Source of the DNA: Rhodanobacter glycinis
GTDB taxonomy: Bacteria; Pseudomonadota; Gammaproteobacteria; Xanthomonadales; Rhodanobacteraceae
Direction of reading: 5' to 3'
Assembly (NCBI RefSeq): GCF_900114325.1
Contig: NZ_FOSR01000006.1
Span: 1 to 64,000 of the forward strand
DNA length: 64,000 nt
Part shown: positions 26,126 through 59,518 of the stretch, one piece after another
How positions within the stretch are numbered: position 1 is the stretch's first letter
How the letters are laid out: every line of letters starts with the position of its first letter
Made by a program: the position numbers and the translations under genes
The notes under the pieces: generated by a model
What the model was told of the DNA's origin: nothing
The model's input: only the letters and a program-made list of their open reading frames with translations
The model's database searches: none

Positions 26126-26204
26126 GTAGGAGCGCACCCTGTGCGCGAAAAGCTTCTGGTCCCGATGAAGCACCAGAGCATTCGCGCACAGGGTGCGCTC
26201 CTAC
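26126..26204. repeat. REP inverted pair, copy 2 (perfect arms)
   Basis: A 24-base arm (26126-26149, beginning GTAGGAGCGCACCCTGTGCG) is repeated exactly in inverse orientation at 26181-26204. The loop contains a second stem, CTGGT/ACCAG. It begins 11 bases after the GH3 stop. This is a BIME-like REP pair that can act as mRNA 3'-end protection or terminator. Confidence 0.92.
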
Positions 26205-42529: not shown

Positions 42530-44062
42530 CTATCTGGCCACACTTGCCGCCGGAGCCGGCGCGTCCGGCGCCCCCGGCGGCCACTCGAATGTCGCGACGC
42601 TGTTCGCCGGCAGGTCGTACCGGAAGCGGACATCGCCCTGTTCGACCGACAGCCGGGTCGCCTTCGCGTTGCCGTTGACGGCCACCAGCACCACCGACCC
42701 ATGGTCCGGGTTCTGGAAGGCCACCTGGTGGACGCCCGTCTGTGTGTTGCCGGATTTCACGCGCACTGCGCCGGGCAACACGAAACGACTGAAATGGGCG
42801 AAGGCGTAATACTCGTCATTGCGGCTGATCTCGCCGGTTTGCGCGTCGACCGTGACCACGCCCTTGCATTGATCGCAACCGCCGGCATGCGGGCCATGGT
42901 CTTCGTCCAGCACCAGGTTCCAGTACACCGCGCCACGCGCCCAGTTCTTGATCGACATCATCAGGATGTTGCGCGCGAACAACAGCAACTCGCCATTTTT
43001 TGCCGATGGCCAGTCGCCGCCCGAACATTCGGTGAGATAGGCATCCTTGCCGGGATAGGCCCGGTGCACCGTGGTTTGCGCACTCGGATCGCCGGCATAA
43101 CAGTGCCAGGCGACCCCGGCGACATACCGGTTGGCGGTCGGATCCGCCAGCACGCTCAGGGGCTGGTTCGGGGTATCCCAGTTGTGATCCCAGCCCAGGA
43201 TCAGCGTTTTCGGCTTGCGCGCGGCCAATGCCGGCCCGAGGTACTGGCCTATGATCCGTGCGCGCGCGTCTGCCGTCAGCTCCATGCCCGGATAGGTCAA
43301 GGGTTCGAACGCCGGTTCGTTCTGCAAGGTCAACGCGAAAATCGGGATGCCGTATCCCTTGAACGCATCGAGGAAGTGCACGAGATAGGCCGCATAGTTC
43401 GGCTCGTATTGCTCAAGCAAGCTGCCGCTGATCAGGTTTGCACTGGTCTTCATCCAGGCCGGCGCGCTCCATGGCGAGGCGATGATGCGCAGCCCGGGAT
43501 GGATCGCCAGGATGTCCTGCAACACCGGAATCACGTTGCGCTGGGCCACGGCCACGTTGAAATGCTGCAAGCCGGGGTCGGTCTGGCCCGCCGGCATGTC
43601 GTCCAGGGTGTAATGCTGCAGCGAGAAATCCGACGCACCGATGGTGATGCGCAGCATGTTGAAGTCGAGGCCGGGCGGCGGCCCGAACATTTCATGCAGC
43701 AACGCAGCGCGCTGCAAGGCGCTCATCTTGTTGCGGATCAGCCATGCCGACGAATCGGTCAGTGCCGCGCCGAAGCCGGTCATCGTCTGGTAGGTGTGGG
43801 CCAGGTCGATGACCACATCGGCCGTGCCTGTATCGGCACCGCGTTCTTCGGCCATGACATCGGGTTGTTGCGCAAGGCGCAGGCGTCGGTCCGCCGTGCT
43901 CAACCACACCTGGACCATCACGCCAGTGGCTGGCAGCACTTCGCCCGTCGTGTTCGCAAACGGTTCCGGACGCGGCCAATGCACTGCCGACACGGCCAAC
44001 AGCGTCAGCAGGGCTACCGACGAAACCGCCGCCCAGCGGCCAATCCCCCGGGTTTCACCCAT
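42530..44062 (-). CDS. secreted GH30 family glycosidase
   Basis: 510 residues. An N-terminal hydrophobic segment (A-A-V-S-S-V-A-L-L-T-L-L-A-V-S-A-V) acts as signal or anchor. GH30 features are M-T-G-F-G-A-A-L-T-D-S-S-A, I-A-S-P-W-S-A-P-A-W-M-K, acid/base E249 in L-Q-N-E249-P and nucleophile E345 in L-T-E345-C-S-G. The C-terminal beta domain begins near 425. Subfamilies 1 and 3 include glucocerebrosidase and beta-1,6-glucanases; this protein's length and motifs fit that side and not xylanases. It is downstream of the TonB receptor on the same strand, and is probably part of the same uptake system. Confidence 0.92.
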   Translation of the reverse strand: MGETRGIGRWAAVSSVALLTLLAVSAVHWPRPEPFANTTGEVLPATGVMVQVWLSTADRRLRLAQQPDVMAEERGADTGTADVVIDLAHTYQTMTGFGAALTDSSAWLIRNKMSALQRAALLHEMFGPPPGLDFNMLRITIGASDFSLQHYTLDDMPAGQTDPGLQHFNVAVAQRNVIPVLQDILAIHPGLRIIASPWSAPAWMKTSANLISGSLLEQYEPNYAAYLVHFLDAFKGYGIPIFALTLQNEPAFEPLTYPGMELTADARARIIGQYLGPALAARKPKTLILGWDHNWDTPNQPLSVLADPTANRYVAGVAWHCYAGDPSAQTTVHRAYPGKDAYLTECSGGDWPSAKNGELLLFARNILMMSIKNWARGAVYWNLVLDEDHGPHAGGCDQCKGVVTVDAQTGEISRNDEYYAFAHFSRFVLPGAVRVKSGNTQTGVHQVAFQNPDHGSVVLVAVNGNAKATRLSVEQGDVRFRYDLPANSVATFEWPPGAPDAPAPAASVAR

Positions 44063-44272
44063 GACCGGCGCACTTGCCGCGGCCCACGGCCTCGTGCGCC
44101 CGCACCACTTTCGCGGTCATCGTGCAACGGTCTCAGGGCATGCCGTATCCGCGCCGCTGCCGGCATTCCCAGGCTGGTCCCGGCCAAGCCCGTCCAGCGG
44201 GCATCGATCATCTGAAATCATCATTCGAATCATCAACTTGTGCGCACACCACGCACGGCCATCACAAGGCAG

Positions 44273-44300
44273 CGGCACACGGCACGAAGGCCGTGTGCCG
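44273..44300 (-). terminator. stem-loop downstream of the second TonB receptor
   Basis: CGGCACACGGC (44273-44283) pairs perfectly with GCCGTGTGCCG (44290-44300) around a 6-base loop, 15 bases after the receptor stop codon. No T-run follows; partial termination before GH30 is possible. Confidence 0.55.
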
Positions 44301-44314
44301 GGTACCCGGTCAGC

Positions 44315-47275
44315 CTACAACTTGTAGTTGATGCCGAACAGGACGGTACGCCCCCACGTGTCGTATTCCAGCGGCCGGGTCAGCGGCACGTTGTTGGGCA
44401 GGGTGGATACCTGCACGGTCGAATCCGAGGAATTGGTGAGGTTGTTCACCTGCAGCAGCAGCGACAGCCCCTTCCAGCGGCCCTCGCTAAACGCGTAGCC
44501 CAGTTGCAAATCGGTTTGCCGGTTGGCCTGGATCTGGGTGTAGCCGAGCTGGTCGAACAAGGCCACCGCTTCGCCGGTGAACGACGAGCGATAGCGTTCG
44601 GCCACGCGGATCGAGAAACCATAGCGTTCGTAGAACAACGCCAGGTTCGCCACCTTGCGCGACAACCCCGGCAAGGTCTTCGGCCCGCCGGGAACGGACG
44701 AGATGGAGCTCAGCGGAATGGAACTATGGGTCAGCGAGAAGTTGGCCTGCGCGCCAAAGCCTTGCAGCGCGGACGTGAGCAGGCCGCCTTCGATGGCACC
44801 GGACAATTCCAGGCCATCCATTTTGCCGCCGGTGCCGTTTTCCGGCGTGGTGAACGAGCCCTTGTTGCTGGTCGGAATCAAGGTGGGCGTGTCGTTGGTG
44901 TAGTTCGAGAAATCGTAGTCGAGCACGGTCTTGTTGTAGATGTAGTTGAGCAGGTTCTTGTGGAACGCCGCCACTGCCACATAACTGGCGTTGCCGAAAT
45001 ACTTCTCCCACGACAGGTCGGTACCCACCGCCACGTACGGCCGCAGTTGCGGGTTGCCGCCGCTGCCCGACCACAGGATCTGGCCGGCACCGGGGCCCGT
45101 GGTGATCTGCGACACGCCGGCAGACGTGGCCACCTTTTCGTCATCGATGCGGCCGCGCGCCATGGTCTTGGCCAGGCCAAAACGCAGGTACTGCCGGTGA
45201 CCGATCTCGGCCACCAGGTTCAGGCTGGGCAACACGTTGTTGTACGAGGCACCGCCGGTGATCTTGCCGACCAGCGCATTGCCATTGGTCTGCAAGGCCT
45301 GCGACGACTGGTTGGTGTGCACGAATTGCACGCCCACGTTGCCGCGCAGCGGAACATCACCCAGGTGCGTGTCGATGTTGAACTTGACGTATCCCAGCGG
45401 CACTTTTTCTTCGACGGTGTAGTTGCGGCTCCAGTCACCCTGCCCGTTCTTCTGCACCAGGTAGAACTGGTTGCCATACAGCGCACCGAGCACGTTGTAG
45501 TTGACGATGCCGGGAATGCCGCCGTAGCCCAGCGACGTCGTTCCGCGCAGCAGCGACGGATCGATCGGCGCGCTGAAATGGCTCTGGTACGTATCCGCCG
45601 TGGAGCCATTGCCGTTCAAGTAAGCGAAGAAGACATCGGCATGCTTGGTCTTGGTACGATCCGACCAGGCCACGCCGACATCCACGTTGCTGAAGATCCA
45701 GCCAACGGGATGGCTGACCTGCAGGCGCAGCGCATGAATGGTGTCGTCCTGGCGATCGAACTCTTCGCGCCCGTCGTAACCGTAGCCGGGCGGGTTGCTC
45801 CAGGGACTTCCCGGATCGGTGAACACCATCGTGCCGGGGTCGCCCAGGTCCACCCCGGGCCTGAAGTCCGGATAGCCGAACCCGCTCGGCGTGTTGAAGT
45901 CGATGCTGGTGAAGGCACCGTCCGCCAGTCCGCTGAACAGGTAGGCATCGTGCAGTTTCACCCGCGCGCTGGATGAGGACAGGTCCGCCATCAGCGTCCA
46001 GTCGCCCACGTATAGCTTGTTGTTCCAGCCAATCGAGTAGAGCTTGTCGTGCTCCTTGGTGTACTCGTTCTGCAGGATCGGCGCGACGCCGAGAATGGTG
46101 CCGGACGTGACGATCGGCAACGGCTGGCCGGGCGAGGTCTGCACGTTGTCGTAGCCGACGTGGTCGTACGGGCTGCTCGACCACTGCGCCCCGTTGGTGT
46201 ACTTGCGCTTGCTGAAGGTGGAGTAATACATGTCCAGCTTCGAGTAATAGACGTCGTTCGGCGCCCACTCCAGCACCGCCATCAGGCCATTGCGCTTCTG
46301 CGTTTGCGATTGCGCGCGCAGTTGCATGCCTTCCTGCGAGATCACGTTGTCCGGCATGCCCGGCGTGTGCGGGCCGCCCCAGTTCTGGTCGATACCGGCG
46401 CTGCCGTTGTCGGCGCTCCACCACCAGGCCTGGTACTGCTTCTCCTGGATCGGCTGGTCGACCATGGCGAAGCCCACCGCCACGCCCAGCGTGTGGTCGA
46501 GGAACTGATCGACATACGAGATGCTGGCGCGATGGCCACTGGTGCCCGTGCCGGTGCCCGGGTTCAACGAGCCGTTGCTGTTGTGCGCGCCGCGCAGGTT
46601 GAACACCAGCGTCCGCCTGGACAAGTCCAGCGGGTTGATCGTATGCAGATCCACCGTGCCGGACAGGCCCTGCCCGACCAGGCTGGCATCCGGCGTCTTG
46701 TAGATGGTCACGCCGTTGATCAGCTCGGCCGGGTACTGGTCGTATTCCACGCCACGGTTCTCGCCGACCGTCGCCTGCTCGCGTCCGTTCAGCGTGGTGC
46801 CGGCAAAGTCGGGCGACAGGCCACGAATGGAAATGGCGTTGGCCTGGCCATCGGCACGTTGCGTGGCCAGACCGGGCACACGCGCCAGGCTGTCGGCGAT
46901 GCTGACGTCGGGCAGCTTGCCGATATCTTCGGCGGAGATCGCCTCGACGATGTCGTTGGCGTCCTCCTTGGTCTTCATCGAGCTCTCGATGCTGCCACTG
47001 ATCCCGGTCACCACCACGCGACTCAGGTCGGTGACCGGGGCCTTGGGCTTCTTCTTGTCACTCTGGCTCTTGTCGTCTGCGGCTGTCTTGCCGACGACCG
47101 GCGAAGTCGAGGTGGCCGTGGGTGTCGTCTGTTGCGGACTGGCCGACTCCTGCGCTGCGGCAGGCGCGGCACTTGCGATGGCAAACAGTGCGACCGCGCA
47201 CGCGGCGGCCAGCGGACGGAGATGATGAAACCGGACGGGCGCCACAGCGCCATGCAACACACAACGATCGTTCAT
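44315..47275 (-). CDS. TonB-dependent receptor (carbohydrate type)
   Basis: 986 residues. The signal peptide (A-A-C-A-V-A-L-F-A-I-A-S-A-A-P-A-A-A) is followed by a Thr/Ser- and Lys-rich linker, a TonB box-like V-V-V-T-G at about 90, and a plug with S-A-E-D-I-G-K-L-P-D-V-S-I-A-D-S-L-A-R-V, I-S-I-R-G-L-S-P-D-F-A and Y-K-T-P-D-A-S-L-V-G-Q-G-L-S-G-T-V-D-L. It matches TIGR01782-type receptors of Xanthomonadales and Caulobacter. The last residues are Y-K-L in place of a terminal Phe. GGGAGG precedes ATG 47275. It is flanked by an EEP hydrolase upstream and GH30 downstream on the same strand. Confidence 0.93.
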   Translation of the reverse strand: MNDRCVLHGAVAPVRFHHLRPLAAACAVALFAIASAAPAAAQESASPQQTTPTATSTSPVVGKTAADDKSQSDKKKPKAPVTDLSRVVVTGISGSIESSMKTKEDANDIVEAISAEDIGKLPDVSIADSLARVPGLATQRADGQANAISIRGLSPDFAGTTLNGREQATVGENRGVEYDQYPAELINGVTIYKTPDASLVGQGLSGTVDLHTINPLDLSRRTLVFNLRGAHNSNGSLNPGTGTGTSGHRASISYVDQFLDHTLGVAVGFAMVDQPIQEKQYQAWWWSADNGSAGIDQNWGGPHTPGMPDNVISQEGMQLRAQSQTQKRNGLMAVLEWAPNDVYYSKLDMYYSTFSKRKYTNGAQWSSSPYDHVGYDNVQTSPGQPLPIVTSGTILGVAPILQNEYTKEHDKLYSIGWNNKLYVGDWTLMADLSSSSARVKLHDAYLFSGLADGAFTSIDFNTPSGFGYPDFRPGVDLGDPGTMVFTDPGSPWSNPPGYGYDGREEFDRQDDTIHALRLQVSHPVGWIFSNVDVGVAWSDRTKTKHADVFFAYLNGNGSTADTYQSHFSAPIDPSLLRGTTSLGYGGIPGIVNYNVLGALYGNQFYLVQKNGQGDWSRNYTVEEKVPLGYVKFNIDTHLGDVPLRGNVGVQFVHTNQSSQALQTNGNALVGKITGGASYNNVLPSLNLVAEIGHRQYLRFGLAKTMARGRIDDEKVATSAGVSQITTGPGAGQILWSGSGGNPQLRPYVAVGTDLSWEKYFGNASYVAVAAFHKNLLNYIYNKTVLDYDFSNYTNDTPTLIPTSNKGSFTTPENGTGGKMDGLELSGAIEGGLLTSALQGFGAQANFSLTHSSIPLSSISSVPGGPKTLPGLSRKVANLALFYERYGFSIRVAERYRSSFTGEAVALFDQLGYTQIQANRQTDLQLGYAFSEGRWKGLSLLLQVNNLTNSSDSTVQVSTLPNNVPLTRPLEYDTWGRTVLFGINYKL

Positions 47276-47526
47276 GAAGGCCTCCCTTTTGCCCCTGATT
47301 TGCACTACCCCTGTGACATGAAACAAATCTTGCACCCGTACTTCCCCCATGGAATGGGCGCGAGTTCACTTTCCGGCACGCCAGCAAATGGCTGCAGCCC
47401 CGAATGGTCTCCGTCGTCAGAAGCCATTCATGATTTTCGCGTGGCCATACTGCCTATCCCGCGAGCAAGCGCGAGGAAACAGCATCCACTGTGTCGAGAC
47501 GATGAAGAGACGCTGGCAACCCGGCG

Positions 47527-48366
47527 CTACAAGCCGAGCTCGGCGACCACCGGGAAGTGGTCGGAGGGATAGTGCGCGCCATCGTGCGTGGTGATGGTAT
47601 GCACGGAGAGCACCTTGAAGCCGCGGCTCAGGATCCAGTCGATGCGCTGGTCGGGAATGCCGGTGAAGTTGTGGAACGTCTTCTCCGGACCGGAGTGCGA
47701 CGCGGCCGCCGTCCACGCATCGTGCAAGTTCTGCACAAGCCTGGCGTGTACCGGAGTATCGGGGCCCGCATTGAAATCGCCCGCGAGAATCACCTTCGCC
47801 CCGGCAGGCAATGTGCCGATCCGTTGCAGGATCTCGTTGGCACTGAGCATGCGCGCGTGCACATCCTCGGGCCGATACGGAAAATGCGTGTTGAAGTAGT
47901 CGAACGTGCCGCCGCCATCACGCAGGCGAAAGTGCGCCCAGGTCACCATGCGCGGATACGGCTGCCCCCAGGTTTTGCTTCCCGGTACCGTCGGTGTGTC
48001 GGAAAGCCAGAAATCACCCGAGCGAATCACTTGCAGGCGCGCCGTGCGATAGAACACGCCCATGTGTTCGCCCTTGGTGCCGCCATCCCGGCCCTGCCCG
48101 AACCACGCGTAACCCGGCAGATGCGCGGCCAGGTATTCACCCTGCTCTTCGGTCAGCTCCTGCGTGCCGAGCACATCCGGATGCGCCGCCTCGATCACCT
48201 TCACCATCAAGTCGCGCCGGTTCACCCAGGCATTCATGCCGGTATCCACCGGCACGCGCACGTTGAAGGTCATGACCCGCAGCGGCGCCTCGGCCGCCAC
48301 ACTCGTGCCGGCCACGCCCAATCCGAGCACACAGGCAACGACCGAAAACCAACGGCGCAGATTCAT
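47527..48366 (-). CDS. exported endonuclease/exonuclease/phosphatase-family hydrolase
   Basis: 279 residues. The signal peptide (V-V-A-C-V-L-G-L-G-V-A-G-T-S-V-A-A) is followed by the EEP fold: L-R-V-M-T-F-N-V-R, D-V-L-G-T-Q-E, F-N-T-H-F, I-L-A-G-D-F-N and the terminal S-D-H-F-P-V-V, all the metal-site residues. Periplasmic EEP proteins of this kind occur in glycan-use loci, where some are phosphodiesterases acting on phosphorylated sugars; a nuclease role is less likely given export without other nuclease context. GGAGA precedes ATG 48366. It is 250 bases upstream of the TonB receptor on the same strand. Confidence 0.87.
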   Translation of the reverse strand: MNLRRWFSVVACVLGLGVAGTSVAAEAPLRVMTFNVRVPVDTGMNAWVNRRDLMVKVIEAAHPDVLGTQELTEEQGEYLAAHLPGYAWFGQGRDGGTKGEHMGVFYRTARLQVIRSGDFWLSDTPTVPGSKTWGQPYPRMVTWAHFRLRDGGGTFDYFNTHFPYRPEDVHARMLSANEILQRIGTLPAGAKVILAGDFNAGPDTPVHARLVQNLHDAWTAAASHSGPEKTFHNFTGIPDQRIDWILSRGFKVLSVHTITTHDGAHYPSDHFPVVAELGL

Positions 48367-56891: not shown

Positions 56892-57211
56892 TCCGTCGAG
56901 GCGTTGCCACCGATGAAAAGGATGGCACTTGCAGACAAGGTAAGCCGTTCAAATAGGGACATGCGAAATGCTTGGAGTGGGGAGCAACTGGGCGGCACGC
57001 GACAACGACCGTCGCGCAAGCGTACATCCAATCGGCCACAAGCCCAGCGTCACAACGGGCCCGCATCACGCCAATGCCCGCACCTTGGGGAATCTCGAAC
57101 AACCCTGTTTTGCTCGCTACTCCTTTTTTGTAGGAGCGCACCCTGTGCGCGAACGCTCCTGGCGTCGATCGAAGCCAGAGCCTTCGCGCACAAGGTGCGC
57201 TCCTACACGGC
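56892..57211. other. 320-base gap containing REP copy 3
   Basis: Between the MFS exporter and the disrupted DUF4965 gene. Apart from the REP pair at 57130-57206 nothing coding was found; GC content and frames give no support for a gene. Confidence 0.5.
57130..57206. repeat. REP inverted pair, copy 3
   Basis: The left arm (57130-57153) equals that of copy 2, and the right arm (57183-57206) differs by one base (AAGG for AGGG). It lies five bases beyond the second stop (57212-57214) of the DUF4965 frame, the position REP pairs take behind intact genes in this window. Confidence 0.9.
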
Positions 57212-59518
57212 TCAGGCAGAGGTTTCGGGATCGCCAGGGGAACCTGTCCGCCCCATGCTCCGAACCGCCAGTGGCGCGAAGATGCCGCCCTGCACCGGCC
57301 GGGCCTCGAAGCCGGTGCGGCGACCGGTAACGGTGTTGTACAGATCGCAGAAGGGCACGCGATCGGGCGTGGTATTGGCGTAGGCGTAGACGCGATCGAT
57401 CAGGTCCTGCGCCACCGGCTGGTCGGCCAGTCAGGCCGCCGTGAACAGCTCCCAATCGGACTTGGCGTAACTGTGCGGCACCTGCAAGGGAAGACCGAAG
57501 GCATTGCACTGCTGGCGATACCAGTTCGCCTGCATCACGCGGACTTGCGGCGGAATCAGCCCCGTGCCCAGCAACGTATCAGCAAAGCCGTTGTAGAGCG
57601 TGCCCCACGTACCCTGCCCGCCGGCGTCGTGGTAGGTGAGATCCAGGTGCGGGGCTTTCGGATCCTTCGCCCGCTTCGCCCAGTAAGCGATGTCCTTGCG
57701 TGCGCGCTGCTGGTAGTGCGCGACCTCGGTGGCCCGGCCAACCAGCTCGGCCACCTGGCCCATGGCTGCCAGCGCCACGATGCCTTTCAGCGACAGGTTG
57801 ACGCTGTGCGCGATCGACCCGGCGAAATCGTCGGTCTGGTTCTGGAAACCCGGATCGGGCAGGTTCTTTTCCAGATAGCCCGCCCACTTTTTCAGCAGCG
57901 GGTAATGGCGCGTGGCGAACGCGCGTGCTTCGGCACGCGGAACCCGCCGCAAATAAGCGGCCATCATGATCAGCATGTCGCCGGTCTCCTCCACCGGCAT
58001 GTCCTCTTCCTTGCCGTCGTTGTGACCCGATGCCTGCGGGTAGGACGAACCCACGTCGTGCTCGGCGAACGTCTTCGGCCAGCCGCCCTTCTCGGCGTAA
58101 TCGAGCAAGGGCAGTAACAGCATGCGCAGATAATCGGGATCGAGGTACATCCACACCGGTGATGCCGGAAACAGCACATCCACCGTGGACACGTTGCCGT
58201 CGCTGGAGATTTCCTTCAGGAACGCCCATGGCGAACCGTCCGGCCCCAGCACCAGTTCCGTGCCGCCGTAGGCCTGCCGCAGCGCAAGCACGCACAGGCC
58301 TTCGTAATGCCCGCCGCCGGCGGCACGTGCGTCGCGCGTGATTTTTGCATCCAGCGTGTCGGCCCGCGCACGTGCTGCGGTGGCGTCCCCATGGAAGAAA
58401 TCCAGCATCGTCTTCCAGTCACCGAAATGGTGGGTCCACAACGCATTCAGCGGCTTTCCGAGATAGTTGATGGATTGCTCGCGCACCTGTCCCACGACAA
58501 AGTCCACGCCGATGGCAGAGGTACCGCAGCGCCCCAGGTCGACCGCCAATGCCAGCGCCGGCATCGACTTGATCGTGGACTGCTGCGCGTCGTTTCTGCC
58601 GTCGAGCGAACCATGCTCGACGAACCGGCGACGCACCTTCAGGCAATCCCCCGCCTGCATGCTGATGCCCGTGCGATTCGGCGTCGACCAGACGACATGC
58701 CCCCAGGCCGCGAATTCGTGCTGCTCGGTCAGCGGCTGCGGCTTGGCCAGCGCCAGCGTCCAGGTGCGGGCGGCCTTTGAGTCGCCGCGCGCAATCACCA
58801 CTTCCTGTGCATGATCGCCACTGGCCCAGTCGCCGGTGATTTCCATGTAGATCTGCACGGCATGCGCCGCACCATCCGCGCTTCGTGCCGAGACACGGAC
58901 ATAGCTCATCGGAATGGACTGGCGGCGTGCGTCGCCCGACTCCACCGGGGAAAGAAAATCCACCGACAGTTCGACACCGCCGCCTTGCAAGGTGAAGCAC
59001 GAGCGCGTCGCCGTGATGTGCAACGCAGTCTGCTGCATGGCACGTGGATAATCCTCGACCGTGTGCGCCTTGCCGTGATTGCCATCGGGAATGTCCCGGA
59101 CGATCTTGCCGTCGCCCATGAACAGCCACGCCACGCCATCGATGCGGGCCAACCCCACCATGCCCGTGGCGTTGGTGGAAGTGGCATCGAGATGGCTCGG
59201 GTCGATTTGCCAGAATTGCGGCGAGGTCCCGGGAAGCAGCGTCGCCGGCAACCAGGTGCTCAGATACGGCTGGCGCACCGCCAACGGCACAGCGGGCGGA
59301 CGGATCGGCGTGGCCGCCGTCGAGAACGGCACGACAGCACCCTCGGTGGCTGTCGCCGAGCCGGTGCGTGCCACGCCGAACGGCACGCGCGCCTCGGCCG
59401 GCAGCAGCGCCGAGCCGGCAAGCGCCAGGCCGGCAAGACCGGAAAGCTTCAGGACATCGCGGCGGCGGGGATCGGCGACAGCCGAAGGATCGATGAGAGG
59501 CGTGCGCTTTTTCGACAT
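57212..59518 (-). pseudogene. DUF4965/glutaminase A-like secreted enzyme with in-frame TGA
   Basis: Read from ATG 59518 the protein has a twin-arginine signal (P-R-R-R-D-V-L-K-L-S-G-L-A-G-L-A), then the DUF5127-DUF4965-DUF1793 layout of GtaA-type proteins (residues about 75-330, 330-520, 520-768): Y-H-D-A-G-G-Q-G-T-W-G-T-L-Y-N is the last-domain hallmark. At residue 696 the codon is TGA (57431-57433) where relatives have Trp (T-A-A-W-L). The frame then continues without shift for 72 residues (L-A-D-Q-P-V-A-Q-D-L, R-V-P-F-C-D-L-Y-N, G-F-E-A-R-P-V-Q-G-G) to TGA 57212. Loss of the end may inactivate it; recoding or sequencing error are alternatives. Reported GtaA homologues act on glutamine or peptides, but glycosidase activity is also claimed. 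Confidence 0.82.

Follow-up and report, generated by a model that had tools for sequence, protein, structure and literature searches.

The GtaA-type gene of Rhodanobacter glycinis at 57212..59518 (minus strand) in the 64,000-nucleotide stretch of DNA that was analysed as a whole, here called the window, is interrupted by an in-frame TGA. Homology to the protein family lies on both sides of the interruption, relatives carry a sense codon at the site, and the genome holds no dedicated decoder of UGA. The TGA is most likely an ordinary nonsense mutation of very recent date, with probable loss of function, in this strain or species. On this view, a single, very recent G-to-A transition changed the gene, which encodes a putative glycoside hydrolase, so that its conserved Trp codon 696 now reads UGA, and RF2 would terminate translation there. 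The resulting 695-residue product would be cut inside a helix, would lack the C-terminal motif and would probably be inactive, while traces of full-length protein might arise by near-cognate tRNA-Trp misreading of UGA. Among the three options offered by an earlier sequence-only reading, a recent TGG-to-TGA mutation is the one best supported.

The gene and the codon at the interruption

The gene was assigned from Pfam PF16335 (GtaA_6_Hairpin), PF17168 (DUF5127) and PF16334 (DUF4964) together with full-length homologues. GtaA_6_Hairpin and DUF5127 are above their Pfam cut-offs, which places the gene in the GtaA-type family, and DUF4964 is below its own (27.5 vs 30.7). From the ATG at 59518 up to, but not including, the second, family-type stop, the frame has 768 codons, one of which is the in-frame TGA. 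The part before the interruption, delimited by reading frame and Pfam, spans 695 codons (57434..59518, minus). The TGA is codon 696 (57431..57433, minus; context GCC TGA CTG) and is followed by a tail of 72 codons (57215..57430, minus) and by the second stop, also TGA (57212..57214, minus). In relatives the C-terminal tail is variable, with stops a few codons before the position of this second stop. The product is probably a secreted, sugar-cleaving enzyme, and its N-terminal sequence, RRRDVLKLSGLAGLALAGSALLPAEA, resembles a signal for Tat-type export, a motif judged by eye. A 10-residue in-frame insertion at residues about 105-114 (about 59177-59206, minus) is missing from all 12 homologous loci, whose proteins are all short there (FWQ-GS-TGM).

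Exactly 72 open codons between the two stops and a single family protein running across the first had been proposed from the letters, and both claims hold. PF16335 is matched at positions 1-288 before the TGA and 293-342 after it, as adjoining parts of one domain, and the 72-residue tail alone recovers positions 293-342 with an E-value of 8e-12. GtaA_6_Hairpin scores 417.7 bits when the stop is read through and 355.2 bits in the truncated product; the corresponding DUF5127 scores are 215.2 and 215.6 bits. The match of the termination product breaks off at position 288 of the 343-position profile, short of the complete hairpin domain to the C-terminal ARPV.GG motif, which according to Pfam is reached only when the stop is read through. 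Open-frame length was dropped as evidence: 72 open codons carry little weight in a window as GC-rich as this one, where frames often stay open well past the stop and many genes have extensions longer than that found here. It is the homology on both sides, rather than the length of the frame, that lifts the interruption above chance.

In a comparison set of one genome per species, gtaA was present in 4 of 15 Rhodanobacter genomes, the present one included, and the full-length homologues in the genus are 78-81% identical. Only this genome has an internal stop among the gtaA-bearing members of the genus. A family search of 369 genomes in the class returned no further homologues besides the gene itself. 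When the homologues were aligned, as the sequence-only reading had proposed, all 12 loci showed a sense codon at position 696: TGG in 11, among them all Rhodanobacter and Oleiagrimonas relatives with the gene and most distant ones, and GCC (Ala) in a distant locus (L018). The Trp predicted at the stop is thus upheld as the family residue, although in the alignment the position is nearly rather than strictly invariant. Given TGG in the relatives, a single G-to-A transition accounts for the TGA, and a sense codon at the site in the close relatives is what is expected of a young nonsense pseudogene.

In the count of 12 loci, strain C06 contributes two rows, one for each of its gtaA copies. These copies lie at mirror-image positions on contig NZ_MUNP01000077.1 (182,054 bases; L084 and L085), and the 19.7 kb surrounding them match at 99.995% identity when one side is inverted. 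Judged from this arrangement, the contig looks like a fold-back palindrome, an assembly artefact, and the two copies are probably one gene.

The state of the tail and the age of the stop

The tail has been kept much as the rest of the gene has. Pairwise dN/dS against the genus relatives is 0.14-0.21 for the part before the stop and 0.18-0.34 for the tail, and all 15 tail columns that are invariant in the relatives are retained. Nonsynonymous changes on the gene's own lineage number 3 in 60 tail codons, compared to 35 in 614 codons before the stop. Neither measure shows relaxed selection in the tail, in what is a weak test on only 60 codons. From these counts, neutral substitutions since the stop arose were estimated by hand, as a weak clock, at no more than about 0.03 per site. 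Since the tail carries the same signature of purifying selection as the rest of the gene, the stop is either very young or not real. An undecayed tail is equally expected from a functional readthrough product or from a base error.

The true genome would have a sense codon and an intact gene if the TGA stemmed from miscalling of a base, from misassembly or from a change acquired in culture. This explanation is unlikely. In its favour, the assembly is a draft of 29 contigs, the sequence is one base away from an intact gene, and the tail is wholly undecayed. Against it, no local assembly trouble was seen, reading frame and homology run on unbroken through the site, and consensus assemblies of the usual depth seldom contain substitution errors. 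We infer that the base itself is real. In the one strain of the species examined, the evidence points to a stop that is recent and fixed.

Decoding of UGA in this genome

A wholesale reassignment of UGA to Trp, or its use for selenocysteine, has in its favour a single TGA that stands in frame where the family has Trp, and is effectively excluded by the survey of the machinery. The genome yields 45 tRNA hits, none with a UCA anticodon, and a single, ordinary tRNA-Trp(CCA) with a 5-bp anticodon stem, A9 and G24. RF2 is intact, scores over the cut-off and has a CTT TGA C frameshift site, which presupposes UGA as a stop (PMC5289835). SelB has no match over the cut-off in the genome, and the sole match over the cut-off to the tRNA-Sec model is tRNA-Ser(UGA), so there is no tRNA-Sec. 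TGA is the commonest stop, ending 27 of 42 window genes, and UGA is not depleted. Across the genome, 39 MFS hits contain no in-frame stop, and the one in-frame TGA among 44 TonB receptor hits is explained by a frameshift. The gene concerned, for a TonB-dependent receptor (L090, G000:C8:154800-159000), is shifted near 157,390 and reaches an in-frame TGA at 157,399; the genome contains at least one broken gene besides gtaA. A selenoprotein is effectively ruled out, with SelB, tRNA-Sec and a significant hairpin just past the UGA all lacking. A suppressor tRNA, a changed tRNA-Trp and a defective RF2 were each examined, each with a negative outcome.

Functional, regulated readthrough, in which the UGA is kept because a useful share of ribosomes inserts Trp to give short and long forms, is very improbable. 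In its favour, UGA is the leakiest stop and may be misread by a normal tRNA-Trp, the UGA-C context is that of the RF2 frameshift, and a C at +4 increases readthrough in yeast (PMC5289835). Trp insertion would also restore the family residue, and the tail is under purifying selection. Against these points, programmed readthrough calls for a stop conserved in related species, whereas this stop occurs in one genome only and all close relatives have a sense codon. Furthermore, the RNA after the TGA shows no unusual fold relative to shuffled sequences (z -0.97 and -0.44), and the tRNA-Trp has none of the features A24, C9 or a 4-bp anticodon stem, which are tied to UGA reading in tRNA-Trp(CCA) (PMC13092985). 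In two species of Pseudomonas, UGA readthrough was 0.04-0.08%, although E. coli reached 12% (PMC9481147), and a short form that cuts the core domain is implausible as a second isoform. The recoded stop that had been put forward as an option is thus unsupported by the tRNA set, RF2, the selenocysteine machinery, stop usage and RNA folding alike. There is likewise only a slim chance that the UGA is simply tolerated, with near-cognate tRNA-Trp at UGA-C supplying enough enzyme and the stop acting as a switch that lowers expression, not as a null.

Predicted structure, surroundings and known systems

Under the preferred reading of a recent nonsense mutation, the consequence of termination can be gauged from an AlphaFold model in which confidence is modest (mean pLDDT 56.6, pTM 0.63, with much of the tail below 50). 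In this model residue 696 lies within a predicted helix (686-698), and termination there removes both the helix that pairs with it (700-716) and the conserved motif F.ARPVQGG.FA at the C-terminus. The top structural match is the GH116 beta-glucosidase TxGH116, nearly full length (E 1.8e-17, TM 0.59, 14% identity), in which the sugar-binding residues E777, R786 and R792 are close to the C-terminus (PMC10167657). Judged by location in the chain rather than from aligned residues, the missing motif, which includes Arg-740, would fall in the same part of the protein as these contacts. Loss of the helix and motif, together with the location of the TxGH116 contacts, makes loss of activity likely, and the 695-residue product is probably misfolded or inactive. 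No second gtaA copy was found in the 29-contig draft, so a paralogue to supply the function is missing.

Three Rhodanobacter relatives have gtaA flanked on one side by pyrF (a label assigned by eye from the protein sequence) and on the other by a TonB receptor gene followed by GH92. On contig 11 of the present genome, pyrF, the TonB receptor (84% identical) and GH92 stand together without gtaA (L091, G000:C11:284866-292359), and gtaA is found on another contig, in the window, next to an MFS transporter and a divergent GH31 gene. A displaced single copy would fit a reduced need for the enzyme, or its dispensability. Further along the window, a GH30 enzyme, a TonB receptor (plug domain) and an Exo_endo_phos protein at 42530-48366 may form a small polysaccharide-use group.

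Behind the second stop lies a REP pair (57130..57206, no strand assigned) with inverted GTAGGAGCGCAC arms at 57206-57195 and 57130-57141, folding into a hairpin of -70 kcal/mol (z -10.3). As had been noticed from the sequence, it starts five bases past the stop, as behind an intact gene; the only other full REP pair in the window, at 26126-26204, begins about ten bases past a TAA-ended gene. The pair does not discriminate between the explanations for the TGA.

Taken as an ordinary nonsense allele, the gene matters chiefly for annotation: its entry should show an interruption instead of a 695-residue enzyme, and the enzyme activity should not be credited to the strain without a check. If appreciable readthrough were nevertheless true, the gene would offer a natural test of UGA leakiness outside enteric bacteria.

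Among known systems, the best fold match is TxGH116 (PDB 7dks and others), and the PDB holds no solved relative by sequence. The domain set is shared with the DUF4964-DUF5127-GtaA_6_Hairpin proteins Phchr2|3002168 of Phanerochaete and WP_074995790 of Streptomyces (PMC9668830). The family is named after fungal glutaminase A, and the Streptomyces protein proved weakly active as a beta-galactosidase and inactive as a glutaminase (PMC9668830). Homology of such proteins to GH116 and GH52 has been predicted (PMC9668830), and a likeness to GH116 is indicated here by structure comparison with the model of modest confidence. Unlike the Phanerochaete and Streptomyces proteins, the present copy carries a stop at codon 696 together with its own 10-residue insertion. 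A UGA at a Trp position is also what is read through by tRNA-Trp(CCA) with a 4-bp stem or of the Hirsh type (PMC13092985), in contrast to the ordinary tRNA-Trp of this genome. The closest parallel is with singleton in-frame nonsense codons and young pseudogenes, in which a one-base stop interrupts an otherwise conserved gene (PMC7918605). As in those pseudogenes, dN/dS of the tail is well below 1, and no difference from them was found in the one strain considered here. Bacterial genomes commonly contain in-frame stops that are confined to single lineages, persist only briefly and show dN/dS below 1 (PMC7918605), which makes the interrupted gtaA an ordinary case.
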